A stretch of 34,453 nt of DNA from Alphaproteobacteria bacterium (GTDB lineage: Bacteria; Pseudomonadota; Alphaproteobacteria; Caulobacterales; Caulobacteraceae): the NCBI GenBank assembly GCA_003241825.1, contig QBLX01000008.1, positions 1-34,453 of the forward strand. The letters run 5' to 3'. The notes under the pieces are model-generated. The model saw only the letters and a list, made by a program, of their open reading frames with translations, had not been told where the DNA came from and ran no database searches. Positions 11,747 to 31,420 of the stretch are shown piece after piece. Positions within the stretch are counted from its first letter, which is position 1. Every line of letters begins with the position of its first letter. Position numbers and translations under genes: made by a program.

Positions 11747-11755
11747 GGCCAGCCG

Positions 11756-13154: not shown

Positions 13155-13168
13155 TGACACCGGTGACA
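13155..13168. promoter_or_regulatory. Operator site A of glycan regulon (LacI-type palindrome)
   Basis: TGACACCGGTGACA differs at one base from the perfect palindrome TGACACCGGTGTCA found upstream of the receptor gene. It lies 94 bases before the aldose 1-epimerase ATG. Even-length palindromes with a central CG are typical of LacI-family operators. That three such sites stand upstream of the three transcription units of the same glycan locus is the main evidence. Confidence 0.65.
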
Positions 13169-13262
13169 GAAGGTCAGCAAATACGCATAGTGAAAGGGAG
13201 CATGCCAATACGCGGTGCAACACCGAAATGCGAGGTGTGCGGAACAGCAACAGGACGACCCC

Positions 13263-14429
13263 ATGACCGGACCCGTTCTTGGCCGTCGCGTGTTTGCCGG
13301 GGGCCTGGCCGCCGTGCCCCTGTCCGCCTGCACGACCCTTCGGCCCTCGAGGCAATCGTTCGGCACCGCCGGTGTGACCGAGTCCAGGTTCGGAACCACG
13401 GCCTCAAGTGAACCGGTCTGGCTTTTCACCTTGACGAACCGGGCCGGCCATTCGGCGAAAATCATGACCTGGGGCGCGGCAGTGACCTCGCTGATGATGC
13501 CTGACCGGGCCGGGGTCTCGGCCGATGTCGTCCTAGGCCTGGATACCTATGAGGACTATGTCGCGCGCTCGCGCAATTTCGGCACGACCGTTGGCCGTTA
13601 TGCAGGTCGGATCGCCGACGGCCGGTTCGACCTCGATGGTCGCACCGTTCAGCTCGACACCAGCGGCGGGGCCCACAGTTCCCATGGCGGGCCGATCGGC
13701 TTCGCGAAGCGCAACTGGACCGGACGTGTCGACGAGACGGCTGCGGGACCAGGCGTGGCAATGACACTTGCAAGCGCCGACGGCGATCAGGGCTTTCCCG
13801 GCGAACTGATAATCACCGTCATCTACCGGCTGACCCATGACGACCGCCTGACCTTGTCATTCGAGGCGACGACGACCCGGCCGACGGTCCTCAACCCCAC
13901 TCATCACAGCTATTTCAACCTGTCTGGTGACCCCGAGCGACTGGTGCTCGACCATGTCGTCACGATCAACGCCGACCGCTTCACCGCCTTCGGACCCGAC
14001 AAGATCGTCACCGGCGAGCTGAGGCCGGTGGCCGGTACGCCGCTTGACTTCCGCCTCCCCAAACCGGTCGGCCGCGACCTTGCGGTGCCAGATGAGCAGA
14101 TGACGATCGGCGGTGGCTACGACCACAACTTTGTCGTTCGCGGGCCGCAGGGGACGCTGCGACGCGCCGCCCGGGTCGACCACCCCGCCAGCGGACGCCG
14201 GCTGGAGCTGTGGACCACCGAGCCCGGCGTTCAGTTCTATACCGCGAATCCGGTTGAGATGATCGGCCGGGGCGGCGTCGCCTATCATCCGCGCTGTGGC
14301 CTGTGCCTCGAGCCACAGCACTATCAGAACAGCCCGAACCGACCCGAGTTTCCTTCCACCGTGCTGCGTCCGGGAGAGACCTTTCGCTCCGCCAGCGAAT
14401 ACCGTTTCAGCCTTGCGGGCTCAGTTTGA
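13263..14429 (+). CDS. Exported aldose 1-epimerase (galactose mutarotase)
   Basis: A 388-residue exported enzyme interconverting the alpha and beta anomers of an aldose. The N-terminus has twin arginines (LGRRVFAGGLAAV) followed by a lipobox-like LSAC at about residues 19-22, so it is probably a lipoprotein, perhaps Tat-exported. Family motifs are GRYAGRIADGRF, HSSHGG, the histidines in NPTHHSYFNL (His214, His215) and the catalytic glutamate in CLEPQHYQ (Glu350). AGGA eight bases upstream supports the ATG at 13263. It is the first gene of a plus-strand operon with a GH88/105-like hydrolase and a lyase-like gene. A mutarotase suggests that the glycan releases neutral aldoses besides uronic acids. 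Confidence 0.92.
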   Translation: MTGPVLGRRVFAGGLAAVPLSACTTLRPSRQSFGTAGVTESRFGTTASSEPVWLFTLTNRAGHSAKIMTWGAAVTSLMMPDRAGVSADVVLGLDTYEDYVARSRNFGTTVGRYAGRIADGRFDLDGRTVQLDTSGGAHSSHGGPIGFAKRNWTGRVDETAAGPGVAMTLASADGDQGFPGELIITVIYRLTHDDRLTLSFEATTTRPTVLNPTHHSYFNLSGDPERLVLDHVVTINADRFTAFGPDKIVTGELRPVAGTPLDFRLPKPVGRDLAVPDEQMTIGGGYDHNFVVRGPQGTLRRAARVDHPASGRRLELWTTEPGVQFYTANPVEMIGRGGVAYHPRCGLCLEPQHYQNSPNRPEFPSTVLRPGETFRSASEYRFSLAGSV

Positions 14430-14440
14430 GGATGCAGAAG

Positions 14441-15712
14441 ATGACGCGTGAAACTCCACCCGGTCGGCATACAAGCTCCCCGACTTCGTCAATGAAGAGA
14501 TGGGCGCTATCTTCAACTGTTGTTTTGACCCTTTGCCTTCTCAGTGGCTGCGCTCACAAAAGCGCGATGACGGGCATCGCTGCAGCGCCGGGATGGTCCG
14601 CGACTACCGGGTTGACGCATGCGACCGAGGCAACGGCGATCCCGCAATCCTCGACCGACACGCCATGGAGCCGCGACGTCATAATCCAGGCCCGACGCAT
14701 CGCGGACTGGCGACTCGAGAATTCGGCCCGGCTCAAAGACGAAGCTGCAGGATCGACGGCCTGTGAACTCACCGCTCTGATCAACGCCACGACCTATCTC
14801 GGTCTGGCTGATTTCGGCACTGTATCGGGTGACGCGCGCTTCGGCGACGCGGTCCAGGTCGGGGGTCGCGCGTTGGGTTGGGCGACGTCCGACGGAGCGG
14901 GTGGCTGCCAGCAGAGCGCTAATCAGTACGATGTGATCCGCCTGGCCTGGCTGTCGGCTGCCGCGAGGGTTGACGGCAGCGAGCGTCAAGAACGGCTGCA
15001 ACCGACCCTGGATCGCCTGAACCAGACGCTTGCGACGCTCGACGTTACCGGAGCCGTCCCCTGCCTGGAGCGATCATCTTGCAGGAACGACACGGATCTT
15101 CTGTCGATTGCGCTCTGGGCTGAAGCAAGCCGCCTGACCGGCGACCCCCGCTATCTCGCGCATGGCGATGATCGCTATCGCACCGCTTTCGAGCCTCTCT
15201 ACGACACCAAAACATTTCTGTTCCACGACCAGGTTGGCGCCGAAGCCAGCGCCGCCGGAGCGGAGGCTTCTGCTCTTTACAATGGGTTGGCCTATGCAGG
15301 GCTGGCACGGACAATCCAGGCAATCCCCGCCGACAATCCTGCCAGACTGTATTACGTCGCCCTTTATCGCGAGATGTCACGGACCATCCTGGCGCGCCAG
15401 AGAGACGACGGCCACTGGTCGGCTGGCTTGCGGCACCAGGACGATGGTCCCCCGGACATGATGGCGAGCGCGCTTTTCGTCTATGGGCTGGCGTGGGGTT
15501 TGAACACCCAGATGCTGAGCTTCAATGAGGGCGAGACCGCCGCACTGTCCGGTTGGGCGGCGCTGACGAGATCCCTCAGGGCCGACGGGGTCCTTACCGA
15601 AGCGAATGACACCGGGTTGAACCCGCGCCCGGGGGGCAGAAACCCTTCTCCGCGCGACGCGGTCGGGGTCTACCTGATGGCCACAGCGCAGATCGCGGAG
15701 CGAAAATGGTGA
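14441..15712 (+). CDS. Unsaturated uronyl hydrolase-like lipoprotein (GH88/GH105-like)
   Basis: A protein of about 423 residues resembling GH88/GH105 enzymes, which remove the 4,5-unsaturated uronic acid left at the non-reducing end by polysaccharide lyases. The (alpha/alpha)6-barrel pattern is seen in LLSIALWAEASRLTGDPRYL, NGLAYAGLARTIQAIPADNPARL, ARQRDDGHWSAGLRHQDD, MMASALFVYGLAWGLN and the closing VGVYLMATAQI. The usual WGRGNGW block is replaced by a SALYNGLAY stretch, so specificity may be unusual. A lipoprotein signal (MKRW... LLSGC) begins at the in-frame ATG 14492. The ATG at 14441 is listed because GAGG lies nine bases upstream; 14432 is also possible. It follows the epimerase by eleven bases. 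Confidence 0.7.
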   Translation: MTRETPPGRHTSSPTSSMKRWALSSTVVLTLCLLSGCAHKSAMTGIAAAPGWSATTGLTHATEATAIPQSSTDTPWSRDVIIQARRIADWRLENSARLKDEAAGSTACELTALINATTYLGLADFGTVSGDARFGDAVQVGGRALGWATSDGAGGCQQSANQYDVIRLAWLSAAARVDGSERQERLQPTLDRLNQTLATLDVTGAVPCLERSSCRNDTDLLSIALWAEASRLTGDPRYLAHGDDRYRTAFEPLYDTKTFLFHDQVGAEASAAGAEASALYNGLAYAGLARTIQAIPADNPARLYYVALYREMSRTILARQRDDGHWSAGLRHQDDGPPDMMASALFVYGLAWGLNTQMLSFNEGETAALSGWAALTRSLRADGVLTEANDTGLNPRPGGRNPSPRDAVGVYLMATAQIAERKW

Positions 15713-15762
15713 TCAACGCAAACGCCCTCTCACATCGGACCTTCGCAAGAGGATCTCGAACC

Positions 15763-16902
15763 ATGCGCTTGACCACAGCCGTTCTTGCCCTCGCCCTCGT
15801 CCTCGCCCTCGCCCTCGCCCCTGCCGTAACGGAGGCAGGAAGCGTTGACACGACAGGGGCGTCCTCAAGTCACGGCGACCACTTCGCCTTGTTCAATGCA
15901 GAGGCCCGATGCGCTCTCCCCCAACTGGCGCAAGGACCAGAGGGCATAGCGGTGCTCGAGCGGGCAGAGGCCGGACTGACGCGGCCGCACGGGGCCGTCC
16001 CTGTAATGCACACCGAAGGCACCCTGCCGGGCCGAGGCATCCGTGAATTCAGCGCCAAGGCGCGCGAGGACTTCCCTGTCGTCCAGGCCCTGGCCCTGGC
16101 CTATCGAATGACCGGGGAAACCCGATTTCGCGATGCCGCTGAACGCTACCTCCTGGCCTGGGCCGGAACTTACCGCTGGTCGTTCAACCCCATCGATGAA
16201 ACCGGCTTTGACGCCCTGCTGATTGCGTCAGATCTGATTGAGGACGACCTGTCCCCGGACAGCCGGGCCCGGCTGACCGACTTCTGGCATCGTCTTTCGA
16301 CAGGCTATCTGGACGCCATGGACGGCGCGCCGATAAACGCTCACACGAACTGGCAAAGCCACCGGATCAAGCTGGCAACACTGGCCGCCTATGCCGTCGG
16401 CGACGTCGCTCTGATCGATCGGGCCCGCGCCGCCTACCGGCGCCACGTCTCGGGCAATATCCAGGCCGACGGCTCGGTCCACGATTTCCATGAGCGCGAC
16501 GCGATCCACTATGTGACCTATAATCTGGATCCGCTGATGACGGCCGCCCTTGCGGCCGAGAACCACGGCGAGGACTGGTTCGGTTGGCGCAATGAGGCCG
16601 GGGCAGGCGCGCGCGACGCCATCCTCTGGTTGCTCCCCTACGCCGAGGGCAGGCTCACCCATCAGGAGTTCGTCCGCTCCACGATCAAGTTCGACGCCGA
16701 TCGCGCCGCCGTGGGCCAGCCGGGATACACCGGACAGTGGAACGCCGGCGGGGCGGTAAACACCCTGCGTCTAGCCGCCCTCCTGGATGACCGCTTCAAC
16801 GCCGAAGCGTCGGCTCTTTCCACGCGCGTCGACAAACCGGCTGCTCCCTGGATGGTTCTCATGTACGAGGCCCGTGCCGCCGAAGGTAACTGCAGACGCT
16901 GA
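15763..16902 (+). CDS. Alginate lyase superfamily protein (PL5-like)
   Basis: A 379-residue secreted protein of the alginate_lyase (PF05426-type) fold, cleaving a uronate-containing polysaccharide by beta-elimination in the periplasm. The signal peptide occupies about residues 1-26. Hallmarks are the Asn-His pair in NAHTNWQSHRIKL (Asn192, His194), a close match to the NNH-x-W region of PL5 enzymes, and DGSVHDFHERDAIHYVTYNL, where Tyr250 corresponds to the catalytic tyrosine of the LHYH motif. AGAGG nine bases upstream supports the ATG at 15763. It is the third gene of the operon, 50 bases after the hydrolase. The substrate may be alginate, but the neighbouring hydrolase and mutarotase fit a mixed uronate/neutral-sugar glycan better. 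Confidence 0.8.
   Translation: MRLTTAVLALALVLALALAPAVTEAGSVDTTGASSSHGDHFALFNAEARCALPQLAQGPEGIAVLERAEAGLTRPHGAVPVMHTEGTLPGRGIREFSAKAREDFPVVQALALAYRMTGETRFRDAAERYLLAWAGTYRWSFNPIDETGFDALLIASDLIEDDLSPDSRARLTDFWHRLSTGYLDAMDGAPINAHTNWQSHRIKLATLAAYAVGDVALIDRARAAYRRHVSGNIQADGSVHDFHERDAIHYVTYNLDPLMTAALAAENHGEDWFGWRNEAGAGARDAILWLLPYAEGRLTHQEFVRSTIKFDADRAAVGQPGYTGQWNAGGAVNTLRLAALLDDRFNAEASALSTRVDKPAAPWMVLMYEARAAEGNCRR
15787..15816 (+). repeat. Hexanucleotide tandem repeat in signal-peptide codons
   Basis: Five GCCCTC-type hexamers in a row (the third reads GTCCTC) code for alternating Ala-Leu in the hydrophobic core of the lyase signal peptide. Gain or loss of a unit would lengthen or shorten the core by two residues without shifting the frame. 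Confidence 0.75.
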
Positions 16903-17286: not shown

Positions 17287-20187
17287 TCAGAACCGGTAGC
17301 GAGCTCCGATCACGAATTCACGACCGGTCTTCTCATAGTTGAGGTTGTTCTTGCGCTGGCTGTTGATCCAGCGCTCGTCTGCCTGATCGGTCAGATTGAT
17401 GCCTTCGAAGGAGATCGTAACGTTCTCGCCGACATCATAAGACAGGGCCATGTCGACGTTCAGAGATTCCGCCTTGCCCTCGACGTCGTTGCTGCTCCCA
17501 CCCGGAACCCGGATAAGATACTCGTCGCGATAAGTCCCCGACAGACGAGCTTCGAACGGACCGCGCTCATAGTAAAGCGTGGCGCTCCACGAAGCCGGTG
17601 ACTGGCCGACGATTGGTTGCCTGACCGTTGTACCGACCGTGGGGCTGACGATGTATTCGATCTCGGAATCGACCGACGTATAGTTGAACAGGCCCCCGAA
17701 ATCGTCGAACGGCGCGGGCAGGAAGCTGAACGGCGTCTGCAGCGTGATCTCGAACCCTGTCAGGTCACCGCCCGGCGTGTTCTGGCTGGTGGTGAACAGT
17801 ACGTCGCTGGAGGGCAATACACCCGTGGGCAGGATAGAGTTCGGAAAGCCCGTTTCCGAGAACGGCAGGCGTTCGCGAGTCGTCTGGACGAAGGAGTCGA
17901 TCGACTTCTGGAACAGGGCGAAGCTGAACAGAGCCTCGGAATAAGGATACCACTCCACGCTAAGGTCATAGTTGGTCGCGCGGATCGGCTCCAGGAACGG
18001 ATTGCCGACCGTCAGGGTGACGTCCGACACGCCCTGGGCGATCGCGCCACCGGGTGTGAGTTGGTTGAGTGCCGGTCTCGCCATGACCTTTGCGGCTGCG
18101 AAACGGACAAGAAGGTCCGGAATCGGTTCAATCGAGACATTGATCGCGGGCAAGGTGTCTTCATAGTTGTTGACCAGCCTCAGGGTATTGGGGCCCAAAA
18201 TGCCGACCGATTCGACCTCGGTCTCCACATAACGGACGCCCGCATTTCCTCGGACCGGCATGCCATAGAATGAGGTCTGGAAATCCAGCTGGAGGAAGAT
18301 CCCGTCCGACGTCTCGTCAACCGCCCGGTTCTCGCCGGGGAACGGGGTGACGCGGAAATCGCCGAAGTCGTTGACGCAGTTGCAGCTGAAGCCGATCAAG
18401 GCGTCCAGCCGCGCCAGATCGGGGATCACCCAACTCGTTGGCGCACCCGGCGGCAGGCCCAGGCCGCTGCCGAAGTTGCTGACCGTCGTGGAATAATCGG
18501 CGATCGTACGGCCTCGGGACGCAAGCAGGGCCAGGGCCGAGGCAGGTACCCCCTCGACCGCCTTGCGGTTTTCCGCGACCGAGAAGCCGAACGACTTGGT
18601 GGACAAGCCGCCGCGCAGTGTCAGGGCATCGTTGAGGTCGTAGGTGAAGTCGACTTCGATCGTGTCGTAGGAGTTCACCGTCTCGTTTGGACGTATCCGA
18701 ATGATCGATGCATCGCCCAGGGCTGACGATGGACTGAGAGCCCAGTTTGCCGGATTAGTGATATCGAATCCGAAGTTGAAGGCTGGCAGGTTCGGATTGG
18801 CGGAATAGTCGTATGAGTAGCCATCGACGTCATAGCGGTCGAACGAAACAGTCGTCTGTTGCGGATTGCGGCCCAGGGCTTCCGATCGGCCATAGAGCGC
18901 CTTCATGCGGAACCTGTCCGAGAACTCGTGCGTCAACAGAAGCGAGTTTTGCGTGAACTCGGTCGAGAGCACGTCAACGCGCTGCTCGGTCCGGGCATCC
19001 ACATCGTCGAAGACGGCGGAGATCAGAGTGTTGTTGTTGTCCACGACGCCAGAGACCAGGTCCATGGCCCGAAAGCCCTGTACCCCGGCTTCGCGCGCCG
19101 GGCTGATGATCTCTACGAATTCCTCGTTCCGCGTCTGATCCAGCTTGGCGTGAAGAACGTCATAGGTGATCCGCGTACGGTCCGAAACATCGAACTGGAA
19201 AGCACCCGTCAGGCCCAGCCGTTCGCGCTGATAGGTGATGCGCCCATAGCGCGGGATCCGCGGATGCGCCGCGAAATGTGCCGCGCGCTGAGCCGCCAGA
19301 CCCGTCAGAACCGATCCGTCGGCGGTCGTGATCGTGCCGACCGACTGATAGCATCGCGTGGAGTTGACGTAGGAGGTGATCACGCCGCCGACCATGGTGG
19401 GGACGCAGCCGTCGTCTGCCGGGACCCGGAACTGGACCGAGCTGGATCCTTCCTCGAACGTCAGTCGCTCGCTGTAGGCGGCTGAAACGAGAGCGCCCAG
19501 ACGACCGTCCAGCCAGCGATTGCTCACCAGGACGGTACCGCGAGGGTCGCTGTTCTCTGTCTGATCGTTGTATGACGACTGCCCGCCCACGGCGAAGACG
19601 AAGCCGTCATAGTCGAAGGGGCGAGCCGTTTGCAGATCGACGGTAGCTCCCAGGGAGCCTTCGTTGACAGCGGCTTCCTGCGATTTGCGGACCGTGACGC
19701 TGTTGAAGAGCTCCGACGCGAAGACGTTGAAATCGAAGCCGCGGTTGCGGTTGGCCCGACCCTGGTCCCGACCGCCGGTCGTGGCCAGCGCCTCCAGCCC
19801 GTTGAGGCGGACGCGGACAAAATCGGAACTCAGCCCCCGCACGTTGATCGACCGACCTTCGCCGCCATCGCGATCGATCTGAACGCCTGGAACGCGTTGG
19901 AGCGAGTCTGCCAGATTCAGATCGGGGAAGTCAGCGATGTCTTCGGCAGTGATCGCATCGACGATCGAGTTCTCATTGCGCTTCACTGCGATAGACGCCT
20001 GAAGCGAGCGCCGGAAGCCGGTCACAACAATCTCTTCGACCTCGGTGGCCTCGTCCTGCGAAGGCACCGGCGCAGTCTGGGCCGAGGCGGCAACTACGCC
20101 GACAGAGAAAGCTATTACAAAACTGGAAGCGCCGCTGCAAAGGATACCGCGCAAGGCGCGATCCTTCGTCGGGTAGAGTTTCAGCAT
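17287..20187 (-). CDS. TonB-dependent receptor, carbohydrate-locus type
   Basis: A 966-residue outer-membrane receptor, probably importing oligosaccharides of the glycan degraded by the neighbouring enzymes. After a signal peptide ending about ASAQ, the TonB box region reads VEEIVVTGFRRSLQASI. The plug follows (DAITAEDIADFPDLNLADSLQRVPGVQIDRDGGEG, then INVRGL), then a 22-strand barrel that ends in the canonical aromatic GARYRF. This plug style is typical of Caulobacter and Xanthomonas carbohydrate receptors. The ATG at 20187 is preferred because GGGAGG stands at good distance; it would abut the other ATG at 20193. A perfect palindromic operator lies about 75 bases upstream and a strong terminator follows the gene. 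Confidence 0.93.
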   Translation of the reverse strand: MLKLYPTKDRALRGILCSGASSFVIAFSVGVVAASAQTAPVPSQDEATEVEEIVVTGFRRSLQASIAVKRNENSIVDAITAEDIADFPDLNLADSLQRVPGVQIDRDGGEGRSINVRGLSSDFVRVRLNGLEALATTGGRDQGRANRNRGFDFNVFASELFNSVTVRKSQEAAVNEGSLGATVDLQTARPFDYDGFVFAVGGQSSYNDQTENSDPRGTVLVSNRWLDGRLGALVSAAYSERLTFEEGSSSVQFRVPADDGCVPTMVGGVITSYVNSTRCYQSVGTITTADGSVLTGLAAQRAAHFAAHPRIPRYGRITYQRERLGLTGAFQFDVSDRTRITYDVLHAKLDQTRNEEFVEIISPAREAGVQGFRAMDLVSGVVDNNNTLISAVFDDVDARTEQRVDVLSTEFTQNSLLLTHEFSDRFRMKALYGRSEALGRNPQQTTVSFDRYDVDGYSYDYSANPNLPAFNFGFDITNPANWALSPSSALGDASIIRIRPNETVNSYDTIEVDFTYDLNDALTLRGGLSTKSFGFSVAENRKAVEGVPASALALLASRGRTIADYSTTVSNFGSGLGLPPGAPTSWVIPDLARLDALIGFSCNCVNDFGDFRVTPFPGENRAVDETSDGIFLQLDFQTSFYGMPVRGNAGVRYVETEVESVGILGPNTLRLVNNYEDTLPAINVSIEPIPDLLVRFAAAKVMARPALNQLTPGGAIAQGVSDVTLTVGNPFLEPIRATNYDLSVEWYPYSEALFSFALFQKSIDSFVQTTRERLPFSETGFPNSILPTGVLPSSDVLFTTSQNTPGGDLTGFEITLQTPFSFLPAPFDDFGGLFNYTSVDSEIEYIVSPTVGTTVRQPIVGQSPASWSATLYYERGPFEARLSGTYRDEYLIRVPGGSSNDVEGKAESLNVDMALSYDVGENVTISFEGINLTDQADERWINSQRKNNLNYEKTGREFVIGARYRF

Positions 20188-20262
20188 TTTCATCCTCCCA
20201 AGGACCTATCAGAGCCAGGATTTTTCCTGATCAACGCATTTATCGGGAAGTCTGACCTTGCC

Positions 20263-20282
20263 ATTTGACACCGGTGTCAAAT
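20263..20282. promoter_or_regulatory. Operator site B, perfect 20-bp palindrome upstream of TonB receptor
   Basis: ATTTGACACCGGTGTCAAAT is a perfect palindrome, with a TTGACA (-35-like) half on each strand. It stands about 75 bases upstream of the receptor start, so a bound repressor could block RNA polymerase. Its core matches site A (13155-13168) and site C (22652-22665) at 13 of 14 positions each. Confidence 0.8.
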
Positions 20283-20467
20283 CACGGCGAAAATTAGGCG
20301 TCCCCCCCAAAATGAAACTAGAACGATGTTCGTCGTCCTTGCAAGCCCGCAATGCCCGCTTTCAAACCCTGCGCGCGGCTGTCCGCCCGTTAGTAATTAA
20401 AACGCTTGCCCCGGCATTCGCCCAGATCGGTCACGCCCGGGGTCCAGTCCCCCTCCCAAATCCAGCC

Positions 20468-20728
20468 ATGAAGCACACGGTGACGGGTCGTATTGCGCCG
20501 CAGGTCGAGGCTTTAGTGACGCAACTGCTGATCTGAATGCGGACGTTCTGGCTAGACGGTGTCGGCGTCTCCATCGCGGACGACAGGTTCATGCTTGGCT
20601 GGGAAGACCAGAGCAGTTCCGACATACTCCTTGCCCGCACGCTGGGCCATTTCTGTCAGTGCGCCTTCAACTATGACCGTCCCGAAGAGACGAGCGGCGC
20701 GGGCCAGGCCACCGCTACAGCGTCCTGA
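20468..20728 (+). pseudogene. Decayed paralog fragment of the adjacent lyase-like gene
   Basis: On the plus strand a frame starting at ATG 20468 aligns without gaps to residues 41-84 of the intact minus-strand protein next door: 16 of 44 positions are identical, including the LDG and DxxF-like stretches. The frame is broken by an in-frame TGA at 20534-20536, exactly within the colinear alignment. Downstream, codons keep a high GC third position, and after a shift to another frame (about 20702-20767) the text HRYSVLIGDIAYRN resembles RYSVLLIGEIAQRF of the intact protein (about residues 234-247). The remnant therefore seems to be a truncated, stop-containing and frameshifted second copy, tail-to-tail with the intact gene and overlapping its 3' end slightly. 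Confidence 0.5.
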
Positions 20729-20741: not shown

Positions 20742-22598
20742 CTATCGAAATCTCAAGGTCCAGCCGATGGCGAGTAGAGGGTCTGCCGGGGCATCGTCAC
20801 GACAGTTCAACAATGACCGGAACGGTCCCGTCGGCGTCCGATGCTCCTCGCCAGGACTGGCGATCTCACACTGCAGACCGACGGGAGCAAAGGCTGCGAC
20901 CTCGCCGACTGCGTAGGACACCTCTGTCCCTACCTTCACGGGGTTTGACGAAAAGCTCGCAAAATCGAGAGCGACAGACGCGATCTCGGCTCCCTGATGA
21001 GCAGCGATCTCGTCGGTGCGGCTTATCTGGCCATCCTCAAGTACATAGCGCGTTTTGAAGCTCACGCGGGCGTCGACCTCGGCGTCATTTCCGCCCAGCC
21101 GGCTGGCGTCCTGCGTCCAGGTCACAACTGTGCGCAGCGGCTCCGTCTGAACTACAACGTTCTTGAAGAATGACGTCGGAGACAGCACCGCTCCATCGGT
21201 CAGAGTGATCCGCGGAAGAAGCTGGGCATAGGACTGGTCGGGCGAACCCGCGAGAACACCCGGCGAGAACGGTATCGGAAAATAGGGCGTGTTCATGTGC
21301 TGGCCGGGGCCGCCATTGATGACAGGTAGCCCGATAACGCGATCTCCATCCCGGTAGGTCACCAGCAATCGATCGTAGGTCCCCTTCGAGAACCAGGTCG
21401 TCGTGGATTTTGGCAATGTGCCCAACCAGGCTTCATAGCCATCCGTCAAGGGGCGGTCGTCCCAACCACGCTCTGACCAGATCTGGTTTGTGTAAGTGAA
21501 CTGATGACCGAGGCTGAGGTTTTCGCCGAGGATGCGGTGCTTGCCGCGATAGGCATCTGTCAGACGTCCGTGATCCCAGAGATTGACCGATCCTGTTGCA
21601 GGATCTTGCCAGAAGCCGACATAGCGCGCCGCAACGCGCGACGAGAAGGCATAGGCCATGGCCTCCTCTTCCGGCGTGAGCAGGTCCAGTGCGGCAGCAG
21701 CACTCAGCACCTCCAGGAAGGCCGTTTCGCCATAGGCTCCTATGCTGCGGCCATATTCGAAGCCCTCACCTCTGAGGTTGAGGCGCGGAAGCAGAACATC
21801 GACAGATTGGCGAAGCCATACCCGCACCTCGGGAGGCGGTGCTATCCCCGTCTCGATGAAACGCTGCGCGATCTCGCCGATCAGCAGGACGCTGTAGCGA
21901 TCGTAGCGCCCGAGGCCGTCCGTCTCGTCGGCAAACCCGTATTCGCCCGAATACTCTTTGTAATGAGTGATCATCCTTGCGAGGAGGCGATTGCTGTCCT
22001 GTTCACCTTCCCAGCCCAGCAGAAATCGGAGACGCGCAATGCTGAAAGCCACGCCATAATAATTGTTCGGCAGATTGATCAGCGCAAGGCTTTGCGGGTC
22101 CACGAAGGACCGCCAATCCAGCTTGGTGCGGAGTTGCGCCAGGGTTTCCGGCGACACGGCCTTGTCCAGCAGACCCAGCTTTTCGAACCTGTAAATTGCT
22201 GAAATATAGTAATATTGCCCCCATGTGTCGTTCGTATCGTCGATCATGAGGGCCGATAGGTTTCGGAAGCCTGCAAGATATCGATCCCGGCGCGGGTCAC
22301 CCGGGTCCATGCTTTCGACAGCATGGGCGAAGGCAATGGCGACCTTGCCCGGAAGGAATTTGTCGTTCGCCGCAAAGACCTCGATGCCATCCAGACGGGT
22401 GGCCTTGCCATTCGCCATCACGGTTTCAAGCAAGGCCAGTGTCGACGGAGTTATACGCTCCGAGACGGTCTGGTGCATCGGCAGGACATGGCGGAACTCC
22501 GGGCCCCGCTCGACCTGAGCAAAGGCTGCGCCAGCAGAACTGGCGAGAGCTATCGCCAACAGAAACGAGGCTGCCGTGACGTTCGATTTCGCGACCAT
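20742..22598 (-). CDS. Exported polysaccharide lyase candidate, DUF2264-like (alpha/alpha) toroid
   Basis: A 618-residue periplasmic protein whose signal peptide ends about AFA/Q (residue 28). I do not recognise a characterised family with certainty. The N-terminal 400 residues look like an (alpha/alpha) toroid, with NLPNNYYGVAFSIARLRFLLGWE (175-197) and GFEYGRSIGAYGETAFLEVL (279-298). These recall DUF2264 proteins, which have NNW-x-x-F and FGRS-x-x-Y-x-x-A blocks at the same places. The C-terminal third is beta-rich, as in two-domain lyases such as PL8 and PL21. Context supports degradation of a uronate glycan: operator site C lies 53 bases upstream of the ATG, and the receptor gene and PL5-like lyase are close. 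Hydrolase or lyase chemistry is not settled by sequence. Confidence 0.6.
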   Translation of the reverse strand: MVAKSNVTAASFLLAIALASSAGAAFAQVERGPEFRHVLPMHQTVSERITPSTLALLETVMANGKATRLDGIEVFAANDKFLPGKVAIAFAHAVESMDPGDPRRDRYLAGFRNLSALMIDDTNDTWGQYYYISAIYRFEKLGLLDKAVSPETLAQLRTKLDWRSFVDPQSLALINLPNNYYGVAFSIARLRFLLGWEGEQDSNRLLARMITHYKEYSGEYGFADETDGLGRYDRYSVLLIGEIAQRFIETGIAPPPEVRVWLRQSVDVLLPRLNLRGEGFEYGRSIGAYGETAFLEVLSAAAALDLLTPEEEAMAYAFSSRVAARYVGFWQDPATGSVNLWDHGRLTDAYRGKHRILGENLSLGHQFTYTNQIWSERGWDDRPLTDGYEAWLGTLPKSTTTWFSKGTYDRLLVTYRDGDRVIGLPVINGGPGQHMNTPYFPIPFSPGVLAGSPDQSYAQLLPRITLTDGAVLSPTSFFKNVVVQTEPLRTVVTWTQDASRLGGNDAEVDARVSFKTRYVLEDGQISRTDEIAAHQGAEIASVALDFASFSSNPVKVGTEVSYAVGEVAAFAPVGLQCEIASPGEEHRTPTGPFRSLLNCRDDAPADPLLAIGWTLRFR

Positions 22599-22651: not shown

Positions 22652-22665
22652 TGCCACCGGTGTCA
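22652..22665. promoter_or_regulatory. Operator site C upstream of the lyase candidate
   Basis: TGCCACCGGTGTCA differs at one base from the palindrome TGACACCGGTGTCA of site B. It lies 53 bases upstream of the ATG at 22598, a normal repressor position. Confidence 0.6.
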
Positions 22666-22737: not shown

Positions 22738-23475
22738 TCAGGAAACGGCGGCCGCCCGAGCGGCATTGCCTTCGGCGGGGAAGCGTCCAAAAGAGGGTCT
22801 GCTGATGAGATGGCGTTGGTGATTGAAGGTGTTGTAGATCGCTGCGTGGGTGGTGAGAAATCGCTGGGCCGAGGCTTGGGATGTTAACAGCTGCTGCTGG
22901 AGTTCTTGTCGTCGGATCGCCAGGTGCGAGTTCTCGATCAGATTGATTTTACGAAGCCATCCCGGTTGATGCAGCTACCTCACATCCAGCTGGTCCAAAG
23001 CCGCTACGTATGATGCCAGGCCGTCCGTCGTGATCGTCTGCGGCTCCACCGGCTGGTTGTGAAGGAGCCGCCTTAGCAGCTTCAAGGCCGCCTCTGTGTT
23101 CCACCGGCGCTGGACCAGGACGTCGAGGACCTCACCTTCATGATCGACGGATCGCTACCGAAACATCCACTTGCCGCCGATGGTGCAGACCACCTCTTCC
23201 AGCTGCCAGCGAGGCGTCGGCGGCCACCGCCGCTTCTTCAGTCGCCGGGCGATCAGAGGACCAAACTTGATCTTCCAGCAGCCAACCGTCTCATAGCTCA
23301 CGTCCACGCCGCGAGCGGCCATCAGTTCCTCGACGTCCCGAAAACTGAGGCTGAACCGGAAATCAGCCATACCGCCTGACGGATCACATCGGCTGGAAAA
23401 CATTGGCGCCTGAACGAGTTTGGCTTCAAGAAACATCATCCCCATCAGCGGCTTAGCCGTCCTCAGTGGAGACAA
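22738..23475 (-). pseudogene. IS6-family transposase, broken by two amber codons
   Basis: One continuous minus-strand frame carries an IS6-type DDE transposase. Family text is plain: RFSLSFRDVEELMAARGVDVSYETV, KFGPLIARRLKKRR, then VDHEGEVLDVLVQRR (first Asp), TTDGLASY (second Asp), ENSHLAIRRQE (Glu) and the terminal HAAIYNTFNHQRHLISR. Two TAG codons interrupt it at 23155-23157 and 22975-22977, in the same frame as the final TGA at 22738. The first replaces the usual Trp of the YLWR-A-VDHEG block. The N-terminal helix-turn-helix region also seems altered. All three catalytic residues survive, but no full protein can be made without suppression. Only the right end (23463-23498) is recognisable. 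Confidence 0.85.
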
Positions 23476-23498
23476 GTTAGCGTTAGACTGACAGCACC
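23463..23498 (-). repeat. IS end, near-identical to the end at 5481-5516
   Basis: Read from the outside (minus strand) it begins GGTGCTGTCAGTCTAACG, like the GGnnCTGTTGCAAA ends of IS6-family elements. It agrees with 5481-5516 at 34 of 36 bases in the same orientation. It lies just before the transposase frame. A matching left end is not found near 22.74-22.80 kb, so the element is probably truncated. Confidence 0.65.
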
Positions 23499-23511: not shown

Positions 23512-24408
23512 TCAGACCGGGGCGGAAAGATGGCTCTCGATCATGCCCATTGCATTTCGGATCGCCGCGTTGCGGAGTGCCGCGCGGCGTGTGATCCGGC
23601 GGATGTCGAGACTCGGTAGCGGCCGCTCGAACCGGACACTCGTCAACCCCCGTGTCTGGATCTCATCGCGCCCAATGGCCTCGAACATACACGTGTAACC
23701 GAGGCGGCGATGAAGGCAGCTGAGGATCAACCCGAACTCGGCTGTTTCAACCACATGATTGTTCTGGGTGACGCCGACCTGCCGCATCAGCGCATCGACC
23801 GCGCGGCGGATTGGCTTTTCAGGCGACAGGCTGATGGATGGTGTCTCGCTTAGCTCCTGGGCAGTCACCAGCGGCTGGCTGGCCAGTGGATGGTCGCTCG
23901 CGACAAAGATCGCGAGAGGCTCTTGCGCGACGACCTCGCCCAGAGTGTCGAGACCATCGGCAGAGTAGAAATAGGCGACGTCCAGTTCACGCCCCATCAC
24001 CAGTCTTTGCAGTGCTTCGGGCGGGTTTTCATTGCTGCGCAAGTGGATGGCGCGGTCAGCGGTACCATTCCAGTCCTGCACCGAATGCCCCAGGTTGCGC
24101 ATCATGAACCCGTGCAGGGCGACTTCTAACGGACCTGTTGATCGGCCTTCGCCAGCCACGTTTTCCATGAAATCGTGAATATGCGAAAGCAGTTCATCCA
24201 CCCCTTCAAGGGCTCGCTTCCCGGCCTCTGTGGGTTTGATTGGGCCCCCCGGTGTCCGCTCAAAGAGCTGGACGCCAAGCTGGGTCTCTAGCGTTCGCAT
24301 ATGTTCGCTGACCGAAACCTGCGAGATACTCAGCTGCTCGGCGCAGCGACGGAAGCTGCCCCGCTGCACGACAACAGCGAATATCTCCAGCTGGCGCAGC
24401 GTAATCAT
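23512..24408 (-). CDS. LysR-type transcriptional regulator
   Basis: A 298-residue LysR-family regulator, transcribed divergently from the GMC/aldehyde dehydrogenase cluster that it probably controls. Residues 1-60 form the winged helix-turn-helix: TLRQLEIFAVVVQRGSFRRCAEQLSISQVSVSEHMRTLETQLGVQLFER. The rest is the two-lobed ligand-binding domain, with AIFVASDHPLA as a usual family strand. The ATG at 24408 is preferred since LysR proteins start with a short M-x-x-x-x-L-x-x-F pattern; an in-frame ATG at 24420 would add four residues. Its inducer would be the aromatic or related substrate of the cluster. A dyad at 24459-24489 in the shared intergenic region is a likely binding site. Confidence 0.9.
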   Translation of the reverse strand: MITLRQLEIFAVVVQRGSFRRCAEQLSISQVSVSEHMRTLETQLGVQLFERTPGGPIKPTEAGKRALEGVDELLSHIHDFMENVAGEGRSTGPLEVALHGFMMRNLGHSVQDWNGTADRAIHLRSNENPPEALQRLVMGRELDVAYFYSADGLDTLGEVVAQEPLAIFVASDHPLASQPLVTAQELSETPSISLSPEKPIRRAVDALMRQVGVTQNNHVVETAEFGLILSCLHRRLGYTCMFEAIGRDEIQTRGLTSVRFERPLPSLDIRRITRRAALRNAAIRNAMGMIESHLSAPV

Positions 24409-24458
24409 GGCCGTCCCCATAGCTTGCGATAGGTAAATCCGAACACCTCTTAGCCTGC

Positions 24459-24489: not shown

Positions 24490-24640
24490 ACCAATCCCGT
24501 GCCCGCAAAGACGGGAGCCTGTTTGAGCCCAATGAGCCGAGCGGGACAGATATTGGTGAGGAGACCCGCTTGCCCATCACGGCGAAGCTTCGACCTGCAA
24601 CTGGCCACGGCCGTGCGGTCCCCACATCGTGGGGTCGGGC

Positions 24641-26314
24641 ATGATCGCGTTCGATGTGGTTGTGGTAGGCGCCGGTAGCGCGGGATGCGCCTTGGCAGCG
24701 CGGCTCGCCACAGGGGGCGCAGGCCGGATATTGCTGATCGAGGCGGGCGGGGACAATCGCGATTTGATGGTCAAGGTGCCTGCTGCATGGCCCTTTGCCT
24801 CCGCCATGCCCCGATATGGCTGGCAAATGAAGACCGAACCGGAGCCAGCCCTTGGTAACCGGCAACTGGATGTACCACGCGGTCGGCTCATGGGGGGGAC
24901 CTCATCAATCAACGGCATGATGTACAGCCGCGGTCATGCCACCGACTATGATCGATGGGCGCGATCCGGACTTGTCGGCTGGAGCTACGCCGACGTCTTG
25001 CCCTATTTCATCAGAAGCGAAACCAATTGGCGCGGCGCAGGCCCGTTTCATGGCGAAGCCGGTCCGGTCAACGTCACCAACAATCCCCGCCCGTCAGGCC
25101 TCTACGAGCGGATGATCGCGGCAGCTGCAGAGCTGGGCTATGGTGAAAACCCCGATTTCAACGCGGATGATCAGCAAGGCTTTGGCATGCCTGATTTTAC
25201 CGTGGCAGGTGACGGCCGACGTGAAAGTGGTGCCACAGCCTATCTTGCCCTTGCAGCCGGCCATCCGAACCTGACGATCTGGAAGAGCGCAACCGTTCAG
25301 CGCGTACTGGTTGCCAAGGGTGCGGTCACCGGCGTCGAGGTGCTGCGCGAGGGCCGGACGCAGACCATCGCTACCGGAGAGGTCGTGCTGAGCAGCGGCA
25401 CATTCCATTCCCCCAAGATCCTCATGCATTCAGGCATTGGCGATGCTGAAGCGATGCGGGCGATCGGAATCGACGCCATCGTCGATCTGCCGGCTGTGGG
25501 CCGCAATCTGCAGGATCACCCCATGGTGGTGATGGGCTTTGCCTCTTCTCAGCCGCTGGGTTTTGAACAACGGCTGCGAGCAGACAAGTTCGCCGGATCG
25601 GCGCTGAAGTGGGCCCTGGGTAAGGGCGGCCTCCTGTCCGAGGCACCGATGGCTGCGCAGGGATTTGTCCGCGTCCAGCAAGACAGCCCTGTTCCAGACA
25701 CGCAGATCCAGATCACAACCGGATCGGCAATGAGCCGTCCCTGGTTCCCCGGAATTCGCAAGCCCCAGCCGGATATGCTCGTCGTGACGGGGCTGCAGTT
25801 GCGTCCCTGGGGCCGTGGGTCGGTGACGCTACGATCTGCGGATCCTGATCAGGCCCCGGCGATCCGGCTCGGCCTTCTGGACGACCCCCGGGATCGCCAG
25901 TTCGCCCACGACATCATTGGCTTCATCCGCCGCTTCTTTGCTACCGAGGCCGCCAGAGAACTGGTCGCTGCGCATGTCTTTCCGAGCGCGGACGCCACGA
26001 GCCCGGAGGCGCTTGATGCCTTCCTGGCGCAGATGTTCATGACCGGCCAACACCCCGTCGGCACCTGCGCGATGGGTATCGATCCTTCAGAATCGGTGGT
26101 CGATGCTCGCCTCAATGTGCACGGCCTGTCGGGCTTGCGAGTGGCCGACGCGTCGGTGATGCCCAGCATCGTCGGCGGTAACACCAGTGCGCCGGCGATG
26201 ATGATCGGCGAGCGAGCGGCGGACTTCATTATGGGCTCCGGGAGTGGGCAACGGCCCAACAAGCCATCATCCCACCGCGCTGCCTCTAAACCTGTTCTGC
26301 AAGGTGCAGCATGA
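24641..26314 (+). CDS. GMC family FAD-dependent oxidoreductase
   Basis: A 557-residue flavoenzyme of the glucose-methanol-choline family, oxidising a primary or secondary alcohol to a carbonyl; electrons go to oxygen or a membrane acceptor. The FAD dinucleotide motif GAGSAG is at residues 10-15. GMC signature 1 is [19 protein letters not shown], and signature 2 is seen in [17 protein letters not shown]. The catalytic pair is His471 (QHPVGTC) and Asn514 (GGNTSAP). The ATG at 24641 puts the Rossmann motif at the usual place; a GTG at 24629 is in frame. It is the first gene of the cluster and its end overlaps the aldehyde dehydrogenase start (ATGA). By analogy with lignin-dimer pathways it may oxidise a hydroxymethyl side chain. 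Confidence 0.92.
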
Positions 26315-27780
26315 CCCTTGATGCGCCCGACGCACCCTCCATCGTTATCGAACATCCGGACCAGCACTATATCGGCGGCACCTGGGTTGCGCCCCGGGAC
26401 GGTGGACGGATTTCTGTGGTGTCGGCACACAGCGAGGAAGAGATCGCCGTAGTGGCCGACGCGTCCGTCGCCGATGTTGAGCATGCCGCACAGGCAGCCC
26501 GTACTGCATTTGATCACGGACCATGGCCGCGCATGTCGCCTGAGGAACGCGCCGGCCATGTCCGGCGACTGTCCGAAGCATTGGCACCCCGGATGCCGGA
26601 AATCGCCCAGGCATGGGTCGATCAAATCGGCGCGCTTGCGACAGCCGCGCCCTTCGTCACTGGAGGCGGCAAGTTCTGGTTCGACTACTATGCCGATCTC
26701 GCCAGCCGCTTTGACTGGATACGTGACGTCTCCCGGTTCGACGGCCAGGGTTCCGCCCGGATCGTGCGCGAGCCTGCTGGTGTGGTGGCGGCCATCGCGC
26801 CGTGGAACAATCCGTTCGGCATCATGGCAGGCAAGGTTGCACCGGCACTGATGGCCGGCTGCACCGTGGTGATGAAGCCTGCCCCGGAAACGCCTCTGGA
26901 AGCCTACATACTGGCTGAGGCCGCCGACGCGGCTGGCCTGCCCGACGGGGTGATCAATCTTGTTTGCGCTGGTCGCGAAGCATCAGAGCGACTCGTTCGC
27001 AGCTCGTTGATCGACAAAGTGAGTTTCACAGGCAGTGTCGCAGCCGGACGCACAATCGGCATGGCCTGCGCCGAACGATTTGCCCGCTGCACACTCGAAC
27101 TCGGCGGCAAATCGGCGGCGATCGTACTTGAGGATGCTGACATCGCGCACGCCGCGCGCGTTCTGGCGAGCGTCATCACCCTGTCGGCCGGACAGGTTTG
27201 CGCCACCCTTAGTCGGGTGGTGGTCGTCGATGCCGTGCACGATCGCCTCGTTGAGGCGCTGGCTGCTGAAATGGCGGCTGTCAGGGTTGGTGATCCGTCT
27301 GATCCCTCATCACAGATGGGCCCACTGGCCATGCAGCGACAGCGGAATCGCGTCGAGGAGTTCGTTGCGATTGGCCAGGCAGAAGGTGCCCGGCTGGTGC
27401 TCGGCGGCACCCGCACCGCAGGTCTGGATCGCGGCTGGTATTTCGACCCGACCCTTTTCATCGGCGTCACAAGCGACATGAGGCTGGCCAGGGAAGAAAT
27501 CTTCGGCCCGGTCCAGGTGGTCCTGCGGGCCCGTGACGAGGCTGAAGCCATCCGCCTCGCCAACGACAGCGACTTTGGCCTGTATGGCGCTGTCTTCTGC
27601 GCCGACCCGGAGCGCGCCTACACTGTAGCGCGTCAGGTCCGGACCGGAACAATCGCGCACAATGGGTTTCTGTTCGACCCTTCGCTGCCGTTCGGAGGCT
27701 TCAAACATTCAGGTATCGGCCGCGAAGGCGGAGATGCAGGTCAGTCCAGCTTCACCGAGACAAAATCAATCATCTTCTAA
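26311..27780 (+). CDS. NAD(P)-dependent aldehyde dehydrogenase
   Basis: A 489-residue enzyme oxidising an aldehyde to a carboxylic acid with NAD(P)+. The oxyanion asparagine is Asn166 (APWNNPF), the nucleotide fold shows FTGSVAAGR, the general base is Glu263 (LELGGKSA), and the nucleophile is Cys297 (GQVCATLSR). The later EEIFGPV block and the final HSGIGREGG are also normal. Length and motifs indicate an active enzyme. It overlaps the GMC oxidoreductase gene by four bases, so the two are likely to work in sequence, alcohol to aldehyde to acid. A receptor gene follows after 47 bases. Confidence 0.95.
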
Positions 27781-27827
27781 ATCAGTAAATACCGCAGATA
27801 ATGCGAATAAAGGGAGGAAAAATCACC

Positions 27828-30125
27828 ATGAATAGGCTTTCAACTCTACGGAACGTTATTCTTATCGGTTCGATGCTTACACCGGTAGCGGTCTATGCGC
27901 AGGATCCCGATAGCAGCTACAAGCTGGATGAAATCGTTGTCACCGCACAGAAGCGCGAGCAAACGCTGCAGGACGTCCCGGTCGCTGTCGCCGTGCTGAG
28001 CAGCGAAACGCTGACAGCACAGCGTATCAACAGCATTGAAACCCTGAACACTGCCGTGCCGAACCTCGTCGTCACGCGGTCCCCGTTCCAGCCCTACGTC
28101 GCAATCCGCGGCCTTGGGTCCGGTGGCGGTGGCCGGGCCTTCGAGCAATCTGTGGCCATGTATGTCGACGGAATCTACGCCGGCCGCGCCAACCAGTTCC
28201 TAAATCCATTCTTCGATGTCGAGCGTGTGGAAGTTGTTCGCGGCCCGCAATCGGTCCTGTTCGGGGTCAACGCCAATGCGGGTGCGATCAACATCGTCAA
28301 CAAGCGGCCGGGCGACTCCTTCGAAGGCTATGTAACCGCCGGATATGACTTTGAATACGAGGGCCACAATCTGGAAGGGGCAATCTCGGTACCCTTGTCC
28401 GATACCTTCGGAGTGCGTGTTTCCGGTCGAACCAATCGTGACGGCGGCTATGTCCGCAACACCGTCAGCGGCCGCGACGAGGGACAGGCGGACAGCGACA
28501 TGGGTCGTATCGTCGCCAGCTGGCGTCCGACCGCAGATCTGCGTTTCGATCTGGCCTATGAGCACGCCAGCAGGGATGTCGAAGGCACCACCTTCCAGAT
28601 CACCTCGCTTGGTCTCGTTACCTTCCCGCCGGCTGTCGAAGATGGCCGGTTTGATTTCCGCAAGTCCACTTCCGGCAGGCCAGAGTTCACCCGTCTGACC
28701 AGCGACAACGCCTCGCTCAACGCCAGCTATGACATGGAGAACGCCACCCTCTCTGCATCGGTCGGTTACTCGACCTATGAATTCTCCCAAGTCCTCCCAG
28801 GCAGTAACCACCCCGTATCAGTGGGCGAGGCGCTCGCTCAGGAAGACTTCGAACAGTTCTATAGCGAACTGCGCCTGGTGTCCTCGGGCGACAACTTTTT
28901 CGATTACATCGTCGGCCTGACCTATTTCAATCAGAGCGCGCAGATCGATCAGGGGGTTGATATCGACTTCGGGGCGTTCGGCGTGCCTGGCCTGCGAGCA
29001 GGCGTCCGGAATGGCCTCGACCAGGGAACCGATGGCTATGCTGCGTTTGCTCAGGGTACGTTCAACTTCAGCGATCAACTCAGCCTGGTCGTCGGTGGTC
29101 GCTACAGCTCAATCACGAAGGAAGCGGACTATATCATCTCGCCGACCGCAGCTGGCCAGCCTGTCCGTGGCTATTCATTCGACGTGCCCAGTCTGTTCGT
29201 TCTGAGTGGTCCACCTTTCGGCTTCTTCCAGTGGTTCAACCGCAACAATCCCGCGACCTTCCGTACAAGCGCATTTTCACGGGAACGGACGGACACTACC
29301 TTCAATCCGTCAGTCAGCCTCAACTACAACTTCGACAACGGGTTGTCGGCCTATGCCAGCTATACCACGGGCACCAAGTCGGGCGGATTTAACGATCAAG
29401 AGAAGTCAGGTACCGTTCCCGAGAACGGCTTCAGTACTGACGTGTTCGAATATGATGCGGAAGACGCCCGTAACTTCGAACTCGGCCTGAAGGCAAGTCT
29501 GGATCAGGTGCGTTTTAATGTTGCAGCCTTCTACACCAAGTATGAAGACCTGCAGGCGACCCAGGTCCTGCCCGGCGGTACGCTACTGACCACAAACGCT
29601 GCGGCGGCAACGGCCAAAGGCATTGAAGCCGATGTCACCTGGCTGGCCGCTGCCGGGCTGACGATCAGTGCCGACGCAGCCTACATCCATGCGCGCTATG
29701 ACGATTATCCGGGCGCCTGCACCATCGGCAATCGGAACTGCAGTGACCCCACGACCGGCAACGCGCGCGGCGGCCTCCTTGAGGGCGTGCCAGAACTGTC
29801 TGGCAGCATCAACGTTGCCCATGCGGTCGAGGTGATGTCCGGCTGGGAACTGCGCACCCGCGGTCGTGCCTATTACAACGACGGCGCACAGTTTGGCTCC
29901 GACCAGAACCCGCTCAACCGGGTGCCCGATTATGTGTTCATCGATGCGTCAATCGGCCTTGCCCAGATCGGGACCGGACTGAGCGTCACTCTGAGTGGCA
30001 AGAACCTCGCCAATGAAGCTGCTCGCGGTTTCAGCGCACCCTCGGTCGCAGACGCCCTTTTCGGCTTCTATTCCGCCACCCTGCCAGGACGGCAGATCTT
30101 TCTCGACCTGCGCTACGACTTCTAA
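27828..30125 (+). CDS. TonB-dependent receptor, sphingomonad aromatic-uptake type
   Basis: A 765-residue outer-membrane receptor, smaller than the one at 17287-20187 and of a different group. The signal peptide ends about VYAQ. The TonB box is LDEIVVTAQKREQTLQDVPVAV, followed by the plug (VAIRGLGSGGGGRAFEQSVAMYVDGIYAGRANQF, then FFDVERVEVVRGPQSVLFGVNANAGAINI). The barrel ends in FLDLRYDF, with the C-terminal aromatic residue. GGGAGG before the ATG at 27828 is a strong ribosome site; an upstream in-frame ATG at 27801 lacks one. Receptors of this group occur in sphingomonad clusters for aromatic and lignin-derived compounds. Its place within the enzyme operon suggests uptake of the pathway substrate. 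Confidence 0.93.
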   Translation: MNRLSTLRNVILIGSMLTPVAVYAQDPDSSYKLDEIVVTAQKREQTLQDVPVAVAVLSSETLTAQRINSIETLNTAVPNLVVTRSPFQPYVAIRGLGSGGGGRAFEQSVAMYVDGIYAGRANQFLNPFFDVERVEVVRGPQSVLFGVNANAGAINIVNKRPGDSFEGYVTAGYDFEYEGHNLEGAISVPLSDTFGVRVSGRTNRDGGYVRNTVSGRDEGQADSDMGRIVASWRPTADLRFDLAYEHASRDVEGTTFQITSLGLVTFPPAVEDGRFDFRKSTSGRPEFTRLTSDNASLNASYDMENATLSASVGYSTYEFSQVLPGSNHPVSVGEALAQEDFEQFYSELRLVSSGDNFFDYIVGLTYFNQSAQIDQGVDIDFGAFGVPGLRAGVRNGLDQGTDGYAAFAQGTFNFSDQLSLVVGGRYSSITKEADYIISPTAAGQPVRGYSFDVPSLFVLSGPPFGFFQWFNRNNPATFRTSAFSRERTDTTFNPSVSLNYNFDNGLSAYASYTTGTKSGGFNDQEKSGTVPENGFSTDVFEYDAEDARNFELGLKASLDQVRFNVAAFYTKYEDLQATQVLPGGTLLTTNAAAATAKGIEADVTWLAAAGLTISADAAYIHARYDDYPGACTIGNRNCSDPTTGNARGGLLEGVPELSGSINVAHAVEVMSGWELRTRGRAYYNDGAQFGSDQNPLNRVPDYVFIDASIGLAQIGTGLSVTLSGKNLANEAARGFSAPSVADALFGFYSATLPGRQIFLDLRYDF

Positions 30126-30154
30126 AGTCGTCGCGGGCCAAAACAGGAGTATTC

Positions 30155-30541
30155 ATGAGCGATTTATTTGAGAGGGGCATGCAGGTCCGACGCGAGATGT
30201 TCGGGCCGGAGCTGGCAGAGCGGGCCGTAGCTTCTGCCAGCGATTTCGCCAAGCCGTTCCACGACATCATGACGCGGTACTGTTTTGGCGAGACCTGGAA
30301 CCGGGAAGCGCTGGGTCGCCGTGATCGCAGCATCGCCACGATCTCCATGCTCATTGCCCAGGGCAAGGAGCTGGAGATCAAGATGCACGTCAAGGGCGGC
30401 ATTGCCAACGGCCTGACCGTCGAGGAGATCCGTGAACTGGTCCTCCACGCGATGATCTATTGCGGCGTCCCCGCATCGTTCACCGCGCTGCGTGCTGCCG
30501 AGGCGGCTCTGGCCGAGATCGAAGAATCGAATCCGGCATGA
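30155..30541 (+). CDS. Carboxymuconolactone decarboxylase family protein
   Basis: A 128-residue all-helical protein of the PcaC-like branch of the carboxymuconolactone decarboxylase family. The family core is visible as GRRDRSIATISMLIAQGKELEIKMHVKGGIANGLTVEEIRELVLHAMIYCGVPA. It lacks the CxxC pair of the AhpD peroxidase branch. True PcaC decarboxylates 4-carboxymuconolactone, but many members in aromatic clusters have other or unknown roles. AGGAG precedes the ATG at 30155, 29 bases after the receptor stop, and the stop overlaps the next gene (ATGA). A decarboxylation, lactone or isomerase-like step in the cluster pathway is possible. Confidence 0.88.
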   Translation: MSDLFERGMQVRREMFGPELAERAVASASDFAKPFHDIMTRYCFGETWNREALGRRDRSIATISMLIAQGKELEIKMHVKGGIANGLTVEEIRELVLHAMIYCGVPASFTALRAAEAALAEIEESNPA

Positions 30542-31413: not shown

Positions 31414-31420
31414 GGACATA

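Follow-up and report, generated by a model that had tools for sequence, protein, structure and literature searches.

The window analyzed here is a 34,453-nt stretch of contig QBLX01000008.1 from a bacterium of the Caulobacteraceae (GenBank assembly GCA_003241825.1). On its minus strand, positions 20742–22598 hold a gene of 618 codons from ATG to stop, encoding an exported toroid plus beta-sandwich protein, designated P0001. A preliminary description made from the sequence alone had placed the gene correctly, given its product the right length, and proposed that the protein is exported and has toroid-like and beta-rich halves. By sequence inspection, the N-terminus is a hydrophobic leader ending in AFA/QV, a probable Sec signal peptide of residues 1–27 (22518–22598, minus strand; ..SSAGAAFA/QVERG, with the slash marking its end), and the structural model of P0001 has a pLDDT below 50 over residues 1–30. 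The leader is followed by an (alpha/alpha) toroid at residues ~41–376 (21471–22478, minus strand; from model secondary structure and fold search) and an antiparallel beta domain at residues ~398–617 (20748–21407, minus strand; from the model and fold search). Export is thus predicted, and the two halves are borne out by AlphaFold models of P0001 and of a homologue from Brevundimonas sp. SH203.

The same part of the window encodes a TonB-dependent receptor of the TonB-Xanth-Caul type (17287–20193, minus strand; profile match) and a plus-strand run of three genes, for an aldose 1-epimerase (13215–14429), a divergent GH88/GH105-like unsaturated uronyl hydrolase (14303–15712; partial profile match, E 4.5e-21), and a PF05426 alginate_lyase-fold protein of a divergent subfamily (15706–16902; E 4.9e-32). 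The true start of the GH88/GH105-like gene is probably later than called, and its leader is lipoprotein-like. The nearest solved structures match the PF05426 protein weakly (E 7e-7), and it is not PL38-like. Near-identical palindromes stand ahead of all three units, as the predicted operators TGCCACCGGTGTCA (22652–22665) upstream of P0001, TGACACCGGTGTCA (20266–20279), a perfect palindrome, upstream of the TonB receptor, and TGACACCGGTGACA (13155–13168) upstream of the epimerase, GH88-like, and PF05426 genes. Operator matches with up to three mismatches numbered 6 in the window, against 1.46 expected, and 6 or more occurred in 0 of 100 shuffles. An operator common to these units agrees with the earlier proposal that the operator ties P0001 to glycan use.

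What is left of a decayed second copy of the family gene (20387–20707, plus strand) joins residues ~35–84 to ~182–231 across an internal deletion, carries a TGA stop codon, and points away from both the TonB receptor gene and the operator ahead of that gene. It sits in the divergent slot beside the receptor, which intact copies fill in SH203 and others. A family match at 20558–20707 was considered as spurious, a reading that was rejected because the match is part of this decayed copy. On the other side of P0001, positions 22800–23480 hold no intact gene and, judged by eye, suggest the remains of a broken transposase gene in minus orientation; a 106-aa ORF there had no Pfam match. Beside the glycan locus, the plus strand at 24629–33826 encodes a GMC oxidoreductase, an aldehyde dehydrogenase, a TonB receptor, a CMD-family protein, a 3-hydroxyisobutyrate dehydrogenase-like enzyme, a lignostilbene dioxygenase (NOV2 type), and an NmrA-like protein. 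Together these genes resemble a catabolic cluster for lignin-derived stilbenes, accompanied by a divergent LysR regulator at 23512–24420.

P0001 matched no Pfam or NCBIfam family, phmmer found no sequence relative of it in the PDB, and an alignment of 33 homologues likewise gave no match in Pfam and PDB searches. Neither phmmer nor hmmsearch matched PL33 at E up to 10 among the PDB chains, which are expected to include PL33 entries; the Pfam profile of DUF2264 (PF10022) matched 0 of the 33 family members at E up to 10, and the Hepar_II_III_C profile (PF07940; PL12/15/17/21-type) did not match the family. Between the family and DUF2264, hhalign returned a probability of 0.2%, a weak negative because the shallow alignments (Neff about 2) give little power, and on the same shallow alignments the hmmsearch link was no better than decoys. 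Membership in PL33, DUF2264/GH154, or Hepar_II_III by sequence was therefore rejected. The beta domain weakly matched PDB entry 1jov (E 0.12), a match taken as chance or as the common sandwich fold. By every sequence test applied, the family is accordingly unclassified, which agrees with the preliminary description insofar as no recognized lyase family was found; the word "new" refers to Pfam, NCBIfam, and the PDB.

Homologues with 50–62% identity occurred in 34 of the 299 Caulobacteraceae genomes sampled, with the window's own counted (about 1 in 9), and the gene is therefore regarded as real. No homologue appeared outside the Caulobacteraceae in a 299-genome sample of the phylum, and a profile search added two genomes that carry the gene, both from a single further family of the Alphaproteobacteria. 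Within the collections searched, the family is known so far from the Caulobacteraceae and that one other family. No viral relatives of P0001 were found by sequence, and its fold matches in BFVD were distant entomopoxvirus and ODV-E66-like proteins.

AlphaFold2 models built from 5-sequence alignments had a pLDDT of 75.3 and a pTM of 0.79 for P0001, and values of 79.5 and 0.83 for the SH203 homologue. When the PDB was searched with Foldseek, PL33 hyaluronate lyases ranked first for both models and were matched over the whole length (E 3e-10 and 1e-9; 10–13% identity), followed by PL12, PL17, PL39, PL15, and PL8 lyases. PL15 and PL8, to which the preliminary description had proposed that the fold be compared, were thus among the matches, and GH154 structures matched the toroid only (E 4e-4 and 1e-3 for the two models). 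The PL17 and PL15 exo-type alginate lyases Alg17c and Atu3025 have the same toroid plus beta fold (TMq 0.5–0.55 with the SH203 model; about 9–10% identity to the family). The fold matches had TM-scores of 0.5–0.57 with an rmsd of about 9 Å, and in the P0001 model the active-site loops at residues 225–236, 279–288, 339–353, and 429–458 fell short of a pLDDT of 50; the models therefore settle the predicted fold class, and active-site geometry stays outside what they show. The lyase part of the earlier proposal is thus supported by fold, with a dehydratase as a live alternative.

Human dermatan sulfate epimerase was also among the fold matches of the P0001 model (E 1e-8), as would be expected if P0001 were a carbohydrate enzyme of the same fold other than a lyase, such as a C5-epimerase or a glycoside hydrolase. 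We consider this improbable, together with the related explanation that P0001 belongs to a recent CAZy family, for which the choice of Pfam, NCBIfam, and the PDB as the basis of novelty leaves room. The gene neighbors are uronate-elimination enzymes, and sets of the NN-Y-R/H kind are elimination machinery in PL33, PL35, and BcGDH (PMC11848413, PMC12088678, PMC12269599).

Toroid folds carry their functional residues on loops ahead of the inner helices. According to the alignment and the model secondary structure, such loops in P0001 hold the invariant or near-invariant blocks DKFLPGK (residues 79–85), NxTWGxYY (123–130), PNNYY (177–181), GRYDRYS (230–236), GFEYGRSIGAYGE (279–291, including R284 and Y289), and GRxTDxYRxKxRILGE (344–359). 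Eight residues, namely N178 (at which the NNYYGVAFS of P0001 begins), N179, Y180, Y235, R284, Y289, Y350, and H434, were identical in 33 of 33 homologues. On the minus strand, N178-N179-Y180 (22059–22067) is a proposed carboxylate neutralizer with a stacking aromatic; D233-R234-Y235 (21894–21902), likewise invariant in 33/33, contains Y235 as the proposed acid/base; R284-S-I-G-A-Y289 (21732–21749) corresponds to R285/Y289 of BcGDH with one inserted residue; and Y350 (21549–21551) corresponds to Y354 of the same enzyme. H434 (21297–21299), in a loop of the beta domain, is one of only two invariant histidines in the family and the proposed counterpart of PL33 H444 and PL35 H401. The spacing from N178/N179 to Y235 is 56 residues, inside the range of 52–59 in known families, and that from Y235 to H434 is 199, above their 130–165. 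The best candidate catalytic set is N178/N179, Y235, R284, Y289, Y350, and H434.

PL33 has a Zn site and HA, heparosan, chondroitin, and gellan as its substrates, and its catalytic residues are Asn238, Tyr291, and His444 (PMC11848413). P0001 resembles PL33 (BtPL33HA, BT4410) in its full-length toroid plus beta-sandwich, and its invariant N178/N179, Y235, and beta-domain H434 follow the same order as this Asn/Tyr/His set, the latter two in loops of low pLDDT. It differs in the Tyr-to-His stretch (153 in PL33), in its low identity and lack of a PDB profile match, and in R284, Y289, and Y350, which are extra invariant residues of the P0001 family. The catalytic residues of PL35 are Asn191/Asn192, Tyr246, and His401, and Asn instead of His at the first position of the pair is associated with activity on GAGs, not alginate (PMC12088678). 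An NN pair with leading Asn, a Tyr 54–56 residues on, and a beta-domain His are common to the PL35 GAGases and P0001, whereas P0001 has a longer Tyr-to-His stretch and by sequence matches neither Hepar_II_III nor the PDB; PL35 was absent among the fold matches listed. In the alginate enzymes of PL5/15/17/38/39, His occupies the position of N178.

The solved relatives of DUF2264 are deposited as beta-D-glucuronate dehydratases, and in one of them, BcGDH, mutation of N176, N177, W178, Y229, R285, Y289, or Y354, among others, ends detectable activity (PMC12269599). P0001 shares with BcGDH the NN-aromatic, the DxY, the GRS..Y, and the later Tyr, at nearly equal spacings (N-Y, Y-R, R-Y, and R-Y: 56, 49, 5, and 66 in P0001 versus 52, 56, 4, and 69). 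The DUF2264-like blocks noticed in the preliminary description thus hold good: the mutated residues are matched in kind and spacing by positions invariant in 33/33. Its proposed set of residues fared less evenly, as N178/N179 and R284 are invariant, whereas Y282, although conserved, aligns with the Phe before GRS in DUF2264 and BcGDH; the set had also omitted Y235 of the DxY block, the residue that corresponds to the catalytic Tyr of related families. A joint motif, NN[WYF]-x-DxY-x-[FY]GRS-x-Y-x-Y, occurred in 33/33 family members and 9/11 DUF2264 proteins, and in 0/20 Hepar_II_III proteins, no other neighborhood ORF, and 0/100,000 shuffles; because it was fitted after the data were seen, it is support rather than a test. 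Other features separate the two enzymes: W178 of BcGDH is Tyr (Y180) in P0001, P0001 is one residue longer from R284 to Y289, and it has the invariant DKFLPGK block in place of an E-x3-R block at the helix equivalent to that of BcGDH E74/R78. BcGDH is moreover a single-domain protein that lacks the C-terminal domain of P0001, and profile methods detect no homology between them.

A lyase and a dehydratase carry out the same elimination, with a sugar leaving in the former and water in the latter. Since the solved DUF2264 relatives are reported to be glucuronate dehydratases (PMC12269599), P0001 might instead be a beta-D-glucuronate dehydratase, which would remove water from saturated non-reducing-end GlcA and so form the substrate for an adjacent GH88/105, as BcGDH does on chondroitin. 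The parallel between BcGDH N176/N177/W178, Y229, R285, Y289, and Y354 and the invariant P0001 N178/N179/Y180, Y235, R284, Y289, and Y350 argues for this alternative, as do the GH154 structures among the fold matches. However, the lyase matches are full-length and far stronger than those to GH154, H434 is a lyase-type beta-domain feature missing from single-domain BcGDH, and the profile searches show no homology of the family to DUF2264.

The genomic context across relatives bears on the same choice. In relatives, the neighbors of the family gene include PF05426 lyases, GH88/105 proteins, and TonB receptors homologous to the one at 17287–20193, and in many of them a GntR-FCD regulator and an enolase-family enzyme as well. 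PF05426 was present in 33/34 genomes with the family versus 2/36 sampled genomes without it (Fisher p 4e-16), and GH88/105 in 33/34 versus 7/36 (p 5e-12), p-values that are only indicative because the 36 comparison genomes were not phylogeny-matched. Among the best family copies, 32 of 34 lay within 15 kb of PF05426 or GH88/105, the latter often as the adjacent gene. GH154 dehydratases also co-occur with GH88/105 (PMC12269599), so that this association would fit a dehydratase too. In contrast, genome G201 combines the family gene with PF05426 and lacks GH88/105 throughout, and oligosaccharides must therefore be finished there by something other than GH88/105; in SH203, GH88/105 is located 68 kb from the family gene. 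Weighing the full-length fold ranking, H434, and these two genomes, we prefer an exo- or oligosaccharide-acting lyase, with somewhat better than even confidence, and regard a dehydratase as rather unlikely. Counting against the lyase are R284, Y289, and Y350, which are closer to the dehydratase than to PL33, the long Y235-to-H434 spacing, and the two genomes of the other alphaproteobacterial family (L105 and L106), in which the family gene is accompanied by a TonB receptor, and in L105 also by a GntR-type regulator, with no PF05426 gene in either genome.

Some relatives show further arrangements. At L053, a GH88/105 fused to a DUF4861 domain (10835–13183, plus strand) lies directly downstream of the family gene, and at L052 this position is taken by a similarly sized ORF that belongs to the same cluster. 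In several Caulobacteraceae (L048, L050, and L055), genes for an ECF sigma factor, FecR, and an STN-type TonB receptor lie near the family gene, which suggests a second regulatory mode.

SH203 degrades cellouronate (beta-1,4-glucuronan), and two lyases, CUL-I and CUL-II, have been purified from the strain, whose genome is reported to have one PF05426 protein (PMC5477187); our genome search likewise found exactly one PF05426 gene. CUL-I belongs to PL38 and cleaves glucuronan in endo mode (PMC13027841, PMC9029943), and the lone PF05426 gene should therefore be CUL-I, an assignment made by count and family rather than by accession. A homologous neighbor from the same cluster matches the PL38 structure 8bdq (E 1.7e-66). 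CUL-I does not act on alginate (PMC9029943), which, with the replacement of the alginate-type His by N178, disfavors alginate as the substrate of P0001. CUL-II, a purified activity to which PMC5477187 refers, is described as an exo-type cellouronate lyase; the literature searched, which takes in few subscription journals, names no gene, sequence, or mass for it. The SH203 family gene lies 3.6 kb from the PF05426 gene, with only a TonB receptor gene between them, in a cluster that also holds LacI, LacAB_rpiB, SDR, and MFS genes and related operators, a set that fits the uptake and processing of a 4-deoxy-5-ketouronate. This copy is on NZ_BDMM01000003.1, and its product has a predicted mature mass of about 66 kDa. 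Lying in the probable CUL-I locus of the very strain from which CUL-II was purified, it is a CUL-II candidate.

In fold and machinery, the P0001 family represents a variation on a known enzyme type. Our favored interpretation, held with somewhat better than even confidence, is that its members are exported, probably periplasmic, lyases that beta-eliminate at D-glucuronate and act in exo mode or on oligosaccharides, with the SH203 member as the CUL-II candidate. The PF05426-type lyase would cut the polymer, the TonB receptor would import the fragments, and P0001 in the periplasm would trim them to 4,5-unsaturated glucuronate, which would enter the 4-deoxy-5-ketouronate pathway. This role would resemble that of Alg17c and Atu3025, which act in exo mode on endo-lyase oligosaccharides by Tyr/His chemistry. 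In the active site, N178/N179, with R284, may neutralize the +1 carboxylate, Y235 may abstract the C5 proton, aided by H434 or R284, and a Tyr, either Y235 or Y289, may protonate the leaving oxygen. An endo-acting, PL33-like lyase on a GlcA heteropolysaccharide or GAG-like polymer would agree with PL33 as the top fold match of both models and with the range of PL33 substrates, but nearly every genome already has a PF05426 lyase for endo cleavage, and oligosaccharides are the better fit for an enzyme predicted to work in the periplasm, past a TonB receptor; we judge this explanation to have little probability. For the exo- or oligosaccharide-acting lyase that we favor, the substrate in the window may be a GlcA-containing heteroglycan instead of plain glucuronan, since the PF05426 partner is divergent and a GH88-like gene is present.

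A bolder proposal, which we advance only tentatively and consider doubtful, is that this lyase family unites the toroid site of the GH154/DUF2264 dehydratases with the beta-domain His of PL33/PL35, so that it acts as an exo-glucuronan lyase, in SH203 as CUL-II, and links uronate dehydratases and chain-cutting lyases in evolution. If the family does supply an exo-type glucuronan lyase gene, the route by which bacteria degrade cellouronate, with CUL-I, an early PL38 member, as the endo enzyme, would be complete, and unsaturated glucuronate would be obtainable from TEMPO-oxidized cellulose in one step. The Caulobacteraceae would also gain a lyase family unseen by Pfam, NCBIfam, and the PDB, and the P0001 family could reveal the kinship of uronate dehydratases and chain-cutting lyases.
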